Assembly: GCA_903813345.2 (NCBI GenBank)
Contig: CAIIXF020000012.1
Location: forward strand, 36,254,528 to 36,318,527
Source: Owenia fusiformis
Taxonomy: Eukaryota; Annelida; Polychaeta; Sabellida; Oweniidae
DNA: 64,000 nucleotides
Direction: 5' to 3'
Part shown: one piece after another, positions 55,501 through 59,033 of the stretch
Layout: every line of letters starts with the position of its first letter
How positions within the stretch are numbered: position 1 is the stretch's first letter
Made by a program: the position numbers and the translations under genes
Notes under the pieces: model-generated
The model's input: only the letters and a program-made list of their open reading frames with translations
Database searches by the model: none
What the model was told of the DNA's origin: nothing

Positions 55501-58500
55501 TGATGATAACTCAAGAATGTGTTTAATATTTTAGTGAGGTGATGGTTGTCCCTACAGAGAACCCCCTGACAGAACAAGAAGCGTGGTCTTATTTCAGAGA
55601 TGTCATACTTGGCATCGAGTACTGTAAGTAGGACTTACTAACATATCATTTGGTGATATTCATTACTAGAACCAGTGGAGTAATGATCAAGGAATTAACA
55701 CACCTACTCTTTGTTTTTCCCTGTCAGTTGATTTGGAGAAATATATATCATTGGAAGGGAGACTCAGTTTCATCGTTTTCATTTGCTTGTTCATTTCACC
55801 ATTTCTAAATTTATTTCAATGTGAACCCTATAGTTCAACATATATTATTTGGTTCATGTTAAGCTATAGAGCATGTGTTAATTATAAAGGTCAAATGAAT
55901 CCTAATGTTAACATGAATCCTATCTATTTACAGGATCTTTATATTTTAAGATGACCCCATATTTTAATATAAGTCCTATATCTGTCTTACAGTGCACTAC
56001 CAGAAGATAATCCATCGGGATGTTAAACCCTCAAATCTGCTGTTGGACAACAATGGGCACATTAAGGTATACACATGTTTGGTTTACATAGTCATGGCAT
56101 GGGGGGATGTCTTGTTCAATCATTGCAATGATACTTTTGTATCTCTTTCTTAAGGTACATGTATACTTAAAACAACTTTAGATGTCAGTAGTATTTGCTC
56201 AAGACTAGATACTTTCAAAGAGAGAAGTCCAGTTGATGATCAAGTTGGCAAATAGATTGTGGTTAGCTCAAAATTATGATTCCCAGAAGGGGAAATCAAC
56301 TTTTATAGATTTTTAGTAGTCTGACCTTTTTCAGGTAGTTCTAGTGATTAACTATCCATGGAATTCAAATATGATAAATATGCCATTATTAAATGTAATA
56401 TAATTTCATTAATGCTTTGATTAGTTTTCACTATTATGTACCATATCATACTTTACACAATTTCATGTTCACTTTTTATATTATATCCCAAATCATTGTA
56501 AATACCATTATGTGTTACCTAATACTCCCTCTTGGGGGTCATAGCCACTATTACCCGTATATATGTTTCATTGATTTAAATAAAATAAATAATTAAATAA
56601 AAAAACTGTTTCAGATTGCTGATTTTGGAGTGAGCAATGAGTTCACTTTTAATTTTAATAAAATAAATAATTAAATAAAAAACTGTTTCAGATTGCTGAT
56701 TTTGGAGTGAGCAATGAGTTCACTTTTAATTATTATAAAATAAATAATTAAATAAAAAACTGTTTCAGATTGCTGATTTTGGAGTGAGCAAAGAGTTCAC
56801 TTTTAATTTTAATAAAATAAATTAATAAAAAAAACTGTTTCAGATTGCTGATTTTGGAGTGAGCAATGAGTTCACTTTTAATTTTAATAAAATAAATTAA
56901 TAAAAAAAACTGTTTCAGATTGCTGATTTTGGAGTGAGCAAAGAGTTCACTTTTAATTTTAATAAAATAAATTAATAAAAAAAACTGTTTCAGATTGCTG
57001 ATTTTGGAGTGAGCAATGAGTTCACTTTTAATTTTAATAAAATAATTAAATAAAAAAAACTGTTTCAGATTGCTGATTTTGGAGTGAGCAAAGAGTTCAC
57101 TTTTAATTTTAATAAATTAAATAATTGAATAAAAAAAACTGTTTCAGATTGCTGATTTTGGAGTGAGCAAAGAGTTCACTTTTAATTTTAATAAATTAAA
57201 TAATTAAATAAAAAAAACTGTTTCAGATTGCTGATTTTGGAGTGAGCAAAGAGTTCACTTTTAATTTTAATGAATTAAATAATTAAATAAAAAAACTGTT
57301 TCAGATTGCTGATTTTGGAGTGAGCAAAGAGTTCACTTTTAATTTTAATAAATTAAATAATTAAATAAAAAAAACTGTTTCAGATTGCTGATTTTGGAGT
57401 GAGCAAAGAGTTCACTTTTAATTTTAATAAATTAAATAATTAAATAAAAAAACTGTTCCAGATTGCTGATTTTGGAGTGAGCAATGAGTTCACTTTTAAT
57501 TTTAATAAATTAAATAATTAAATAAAAAAAACTGTTTCAGATTGCTGATTTTGGAGTGAGCAAAGAGTTCACTTTTAATTTTAATAAATTAAATAATTAA
57601 ATAAAAAAAACTGTTTCAGATTGCTGATTTTGGAGTGAGCAAAGAGTTCACTTTTAATTTTAATAAATTAAATAATTAAATAAAAAAAACTGTTCCAGAT
57701 TGCTGATTTTGGAGTGAGCAATGAGTTCACTTTTAATTTTAATAAATTAAATAATTAAATAATAAAACTGTTCCAGATTGCTGATTTTGGAGTGAGCAAT
57801 GAGTTCACTTTTAATTTTAATAAATTAAATAATTAAATTAATAAAAAACTGTTCCAGATTGCTGATTTTGGAGTGAGCAAAGAGTTCACTTTTAATTTTA
57901 ATAAATTAAATAATTAAATAAAAAAAACTGTTTCAGATTGCTGATTTTGGAGTGAGCAAAGAGTTCACTTTTAATTTTAATAAATTAAATAATTAAATTA
58001 AAAAAACTGTTTCAGATTGCTGATTTTGGAGTGAGCAAAGAGTTCACTTTTAATTTTAATAAATTAAATAATTAAATAAAAAAAACTGTTTCAGATTGCT
58101 GATTTTGGAGTGAGCAATGAGTTCACTTTTAATTTTAATAAATTAAATAATTAAATAATAAAACTGTTCCAGATTGCTGATTTTGGAGTGAGCAAAGAGT
58201 TCACTTTTAATTTTAATAAATTAAATAATTAAATAAAAAAAACTGTTTCAGATTGCTGATTTTGGAGTGAGCAATGAGTTCACTTTTAATTTTAATAAAT
58301 TAAATAATTAAATAATAAAACTGTTCCAGATTGCTGATTTTGGAGTGAGCAATGAGTTCACTTTTAATTTTAATAAATTAAATAATTAAATAATTAAACT
58401 GTTCCAGATTGCTGATTTTGGAGTGAGCAAAGAGTTCACTTTTAATTTTAATAAATTAAATAATTAAATAAAAAAAACTGTTTCAGATTGCTGATTTTGG

Positions 58501-59033: not shown

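Follow-up and report, generated by a model that had tools for sequence, protein, structure and literature searches.

The window, which is the whole 64,000-nucleotide stretch of DNA analysed here, carries a gene that its predicted product identifies as CaMKK of the annelid Owenia fusiformis. Within the window, eight exons were joined into a spliced model in which all introns are GT-AG and all exons are in phase. With the last of the acceptors at the DFG exon in use, all 451 residues of the model's product are the same as in an annotated Owenia fusiformis protein of 775 residues. After the Owenia protein, the best 120 of 3068 matches contain CaMKK1-like proteins of molluscs, a nemertean, and a brachiopod at about 60%. 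The best solved structure matching the product is that of CaMKK2 (2zv2). Thirteen coding exons, covering the CaMKK protein except for its first residues, were placed between 14007 and 66757, in coordinates that extend beyond the window end. The gene includes a microexon of 22 nt at 51671-51692 (the VFTLYTKG region), which is required by the reading frame.

Several other features are found in the same region. An innexin gene (61039-62382, forward strand; Pfam Innexin, E = 2.5e-95), apparently with one coding exon, is located within the CaMKK intron at 59034-64360 (joined coordinates) and on the same strand. On the minus strand, 912-5021 forms an open frame of 1369 codons that resembles an LTR retroelement polyprotein. 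At 12498-13626, a 72-bp unit is repeated in 15.6 copies with a 99% match; this array is unusually uniform and leaves 336 codons open on the minus strand. Two minisatellite arrays also occupy CaMKK introns, at 51865-52235 and 54237-55297; judged by eye, they seem to be built from one unit family and to run in opposite directions. A search of the window against Rfam returned nothing at the gathering score, and ARAGORN, run with the bacterial code, found no tRNA in it.

The exon encoding the DFG motif is preceded by tandem copies of its own acceptor and 5' end, as the original prediction, which counted 24 of them, had proposed. Each copy contains a 21-base core, ATTGCTGATTTTGGAGTGAGC, which occurs in 25 exact copies, the first at 56615 and the last at 58487, with a spacing of 75-81 bases. 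TRF reports the region as a single array with a period of 79 and 24.9 copies. A chance repeat as its origin is ruled out by the TRF score of 3440. In copies 1-24, called decoys here, the acceptor CTGTT(T/C)CAG is followed by 33 exon-like bases and then by an AT-rich spacer. Only copy 25 runs on into the 126-base exon and its donor (Table 1). Among the matches returned from the 498-Mb genome, a single haploid assembly, the full DFG exon was found once, and the other 24 matches were the decoys.

The decoys are highly uniform at their acceptor and in their exon-like part. The CAG is intact in 24/24, and the 33 exon-like bases vary at a single site, giving an N codon in 10 decoys and a K codon in 14. 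An in-frame stop follows at codon 19 or 20 in all 24, and a kinase translated from mRNA spliced to any decoy would end just past DFG. Both points agree with the original prediction, which had also described the lead-in of these acceptors as A-rich. Pyrimidines indeed make up 35% of positions -20 to -4, the lowest value among the 13 located CaMKK acceptors (0.53-0.82 in the other 12). The prediction went too far in stating that the decoys have no donor. GTGAGC sits 15 nt past the acceptor (at +16) in 25/25 copies; preceded by GGA, it is weak against the donor consensus, and as a possible donor it would leave an in-frame microexon encoding IADFG. The annotated Owenia protein has the IADFG segment, with its DFG, once; the annotated mRNA must therefore be spliced to the last acceptor, as far as the annotated protein can show. 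The published Owenia annotation, from which this protein may come, is described as relying on RNA-seq and junction evidence (PMC9977687).

Table 1. Splice-boundary arrays of the CaMKK gene and the exons next to them (window coordinates).
Feature	Position	Strand	Basis
Large exon with arrayed donor; annotation places the exon end at the first donor	46091..46799	+	
Donor array: exon end and GTRAGTAT repeats, period about 38	46786..47216	+	TRF
Second acceptor array: decoys at 49074 and 49137, real acceptor at 49203	49068..49236	+	TRF
Exon behind the second acceptor array (starts with 20 listed residues)	49203..49358	+	
Exon upstream of the DFG array (25 residues); its donor must pair with the right acceptor	55993..56066	+	
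DFG acceptor array: 24 decoys (acceptor, first 11 codons, AT-rich spacer); copy 25 is real	56574..58519	+	TRF, unit table, alignment
Decoy 20, identical to the real DFG acceptor from -82 to +33	58095..58127	+	
Decoy 22, identical to the real DFG acceptor from -91 to +33	58252..58284	+	
Real DFG exon (42 residues), donor at 58613	58487..58612	+	Identical to annotated Owenia protein

Two further CaMKK splice sites, beyond the one covered by the original prediction, adjoin arrays of themselves: the donor after 46799 and the acceptor at 49203. Weaker copies of the donor array go on to about 47373, and the last four decoys lie outside the TRF array. With a threshold of at least 15 matching bases in 26, 15 decoys were scored, of which 10 have the GT and five have lost it. 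Reading through the real donor leads to a stop after 13 codons. In the second acceptor array, both decoys keep the AG, are in phase, and have an open frame; their use would add 43 or 22 residues to what is presumably an Arg/Pro-rich insert region, encoded by the exon behind them. In all three arrays, the intron holds the spare copies, and the copy taken in the annotated mRNA is the one that adjoins the exon body. The mean copy-to-copy identity is 95% in the DFG array, 78% in the donor array, about 74% in the second acceptor array (from rough cuts), and 92% in a cadherin-like array described below. These identities are unequal, so the arrays are of unlike age.

Two decoys of the DFG array are informative about how the right acceptor is chosen. 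Decoy 20 shares a stretch of 115 bases with the real acceptor, and decoy 22 shares one of 124. The K variant carried by 14 of the 24 decoys is absent from the real copy, which is nonetheless the same as these two decoys over more than 100 bases. Any branch point, pyrimidine tract, AG, and exon start of the usual kind are thus all the same in the decoys and in the real site. The local site therefore cannot account for the choice; judging from this identity, the discriminating sequence must be farther off, for example in the exon body past +33 and at the donor 126 bases away. Exon definition is an established idea that predicts choice by more distant sequence. It is the favoured account of the DFG acceptor here, as in the original prediction, given that the two decoys match the real site from 82 (decoy 20) or 91 (decoy 22) bases before it to 33 bases past it.

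Tandem arrays, counted with TRF at a period of at least 10 and a score of at least 50, make up 20.7% of the 94 kb around CaMKK (48 arrays). In a 200-kb genome sample, which consisted of 20 stretches of 10 kb at hand-picked positions on 12 contigs, they make up 10.8% (58 arrays); three of the 20 stretches have none, and two are about half array. Three short tandem repeats span 159 bases within the last CaMKK coding exon (joined coordinates 66359-66750), so arrays are not absent from coding sequence. Three of the 25 located CaMKK splice sites are inside arrays, versus a mean of 5.07 when the arrays were shifted (P of three or more, 0.84; of three or fewer, 0.27). This shift test over 25 CaMKK sites gives no enrichment of arrays at splice sites and has little power, because arrays are not significantly depleted from coding sequence either (240 of 2317 bases, versus 482 expected by shifting; P = 0.25). 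The donor near 65984 was placed 2 nt off in the test, with no array nearby. Nothing in this weak test marks splice sites as preferred locations of arrays. Outside the window, at joined coordinates 82639-82986 and 93490-93967, arrays begin 13 and 5 nt past the putative donors of two similar frames. These two arrays do not repeat the donor and were left out of the counts.

One more array of an acceptor and exon start was found in the 200-kb sample by a non-exhaustive search, in which 329 array-touching frames were ranked by a codon model and one candidate was kept. This array (L019:5939-7979, TRF) has 35 copies with a period of 53, and the AG is present in 34/35. Its last copy opens an exon at 7951-8156. 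On its own, this exon gave no Pfam match and reached protocadherin-15 only at E = 0.91. When it was joined with the next two exon pieces, protocadherin-15 was matched at 1.7e-25 (residues 10-111 of 126), while CELSR1 ranked first at 1.1e-30 on the later part; a Pfam Cadherin match was limited to residues 92-126 and under its cut-off. On the strength of these matches, the exon is regarded as coding, in a cadherin-like gene. One case per 200 kb would correspond, very roughly, to thousands genome-wide, an estimate whose interval covers two orders of magnitude. Another kind of repeated exon may be present at G000:C9:7082562-7087388, where one part of the dynein AAA_6 profile (about 56-164) is matched three times within a single gene region. 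These matches, 1.2 and 3.3 kb apart, are perhaps duplicated alternative exons. The genome has 88 dynein matches, grouped by hand into about 18 loci.

Low variation in the exon-like part of the copies would be a possible sign of selection on the decoys. In the alignment of the DFG decoys, 1/33 exon-like columns are variable versus 13/48 spacer columns (p = 0.006). The cadherin-like array reverses this pattern, with 69/1054 exon-like cells off consensus versus 11/682, and the donor array has no difference, with 19/120 exon-like versus 40/260 intron-side cells. This comparison took 31 of the 34 cadherin-like decoys (three adjoining 138-bp units were dropped) and 10 of the 15 donor decoys. The GT columns of the donor array are off consensus in 4/20 cells, versus 15-16% overall. 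Because the cadherin-like array is opposite and the donor array has no difference, the low exon-like variation of the DFG decoys is read as repeat turnover together with a low-complexity spacer, and not as selection. The uniform exon-like part of the DFG decoys and the AG in 34/35 cadherin-like copies might hint at constraint on the decoys, or at youth and the alignment of the spacer. On the whole, the evidence for a selected function of the decoys is weak and inconsistent.

Arrays of this anatomy have been described in amphioxus as "mirages". In published accounts, mirages duplicate an intron-exon boundary, at the 5' or the 3' end of an exon, in the manner of a minisatellite; their copy number varies by haplotype, and the mRNA is regular (PMC3087553, PMC3902484). 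The genes named there are the globins BflGb6 and BflGb9, Adh3, TnC, and PGBD5. Like them, the three CaMKK arrays are tandem arrays spanning an intron-exon boundary, keep splice signals in many copies (CAG in 24/24, GT in 10/15, AG in 2/2), and affect both 5' and 3' exon boundaries, with one donor and two acceptor arrays. For another mirage feature, terminal copies that escape homogenisation, the signs in the DFG array are mixed: the real copy lacks the common K variant but matches decoys 20 and 22 over more than 100 bases. By their sequence anatomy, the CaMKK arrays would be mirages. They differ in occurring in an annelid rather than a lancelet and in numbering three in one gene, and the DFG array has 25 copies versus 6 and 3 in two BflGb6 haplotypes (PMC3087553, PMC3902484).

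A counterpart of the donor array is reported in human F7. Intron 7 of this gene contains a variable number of homologous 37-bp repeats that start with the true donor, and only the most upstream donor is normally used (PMC6627357). The CaMKK array at 46786 likewise starts with its true donor, and by the annotation it is the donor nearest the exon that is used. F7, as described there, has a donor array only, of unrelated sequence; it is a counterpart of the 46786 array, which in turn mirrors the DFG array. Tandem duplication is also reported to copy or activate splice signals within a gene in human internal tandem repeats that alter gene structure (PMC2812944) and in intron gain (PMC4974935), as it appears to have done in CaMKK. 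The annotated CaMKK product is without a new intron or exon, unlike the outcome in intron gain, where duplicated signals bound a new intron. Among annelids, earthworm metallothionein genes have intronic minisatellites, and one clone has tandem exon duplications that are absent from the final transcript; the accessible part of that report names no splice-boundary arrays (PMC12783039). No mirage outside amphioxus was named in the literature searched, with most subscription papers outside its reach. As far as seen, mirages in an annelid would be a new phylum for a known kind of array.

The DFG array is probably a near-neutral mirage in Owenia fusiformis CaMKK, perhaps with some unproductive splicing. 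A tandem duplication across the intron-exon junction would have left the intron with additional copies of the acceptor and exon start, and turnover of the repeats would then have taken the copy number to 25. The copies would be tolerated because they are on the intron side and the last copy still opens an intact exon. The spliceosome would pick the last acceptor because no other acceptor has the true donor at 58613 a normal exon length (126 nt) away, as exon definition predicts and as the identity of the decoys suggests. Some leakage to the nearest decoys is likely and would give truncated mRNA. The donor array would mirror this arrangement, with the first copy used and the spares downstream. 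The decoys probably divert a modest share of the transcripts, and the net effect on CaMKK is probably small.

A stronger role for the decoys has also been considered, in which they compete with the real site, part of the transcripts stop just past DFG and decay, and copy number sets CaMKK output. The stop at codon 19 or 20 in every decoy, the two decoys that are locally the same as the real site, and the unusually uniform exon-like part fit this idea. It is nevertheless rather unlikely: amphioxus mirages are reported to leave regular splicing undisturbed (PMC3087553, PMC3902484), arrays are common with no excess at splice sites, the donor decoys decay, and the second-acceptor decoys are open and in frame and would not truncate the product. 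The suggestions in the original prediction that the array titrates splicing factors, slows splicing, or acts as a switch are likewise only possibilities: this is a known kind of array, splice sites have no excess of arrays, and the older donor array loses its GT at about the rate at which its other bases change. The low exon-like variation of the DFG decoys is one sign in the other direction. A broader form, quite unlikely in our view, holds that splice-boundary arrays are common across the Owenia genome and that the DFG array restrains CaMKK as a brake that is inherited and varies in length, with each added decoy diverting more transcripts into decay. Calcium-signalling output would then drift with the minisatellite count.

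The decoys might instead alter the protein or be absent from the animal. Occasional use of the acceptors at 49074 and 49137 would yield variants with a longer insert, and both keep the AG, the phase, and an open frame. We consider this very unlikely, since the annotated protein takes 49203, the extra residues (HHYILF...) resemble translated intron, and chance can give an open frame of this length. Each DFG copy could also be a 15-nt exon running from the acceptor to GTGAGC, which would add in-frame IADFG repeats. The presence of GTGAGC at +16 in 25/25 copies and the mini-introns of 60-66 nt that would result are compatible with such a chain, but GGA/GTGAGC is a weak donor, the IADFG codons are conserved in CaMKK anyway, and IADFG occurs once in the annotated protein; the chain is extremely improbable. 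Tandem arrays are generally hard to assemble, and the DFG array might be shorter or missing in the worm. The copies bear distinct variants, however, and the PacBio reads of the published Owenia genome, probably the assembly analysed here, with a reported N50 of 25.75-30.75 kb (PMC9977687), far exceed the 2 kb of the array. An assembly error is most improbable for these reasons, and many more arrays of a like sort are present in the genome.

By their anatomy, these arrays extend mirages from lancelets to an annelid; they reach a high copy number, three of them share a conserved signalling gene, and a fourth turned up in a small sample. Decoys 20 and 22 are a natural control that excludes anything local to the acceptor, making the locus a test of 3' splice site choice. 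Such arrays are also a warning for gene predictors on genomes of this kind. The second-acceptor decoys are open and in frame, and for this reason such arrays may provide raw material for new exons.
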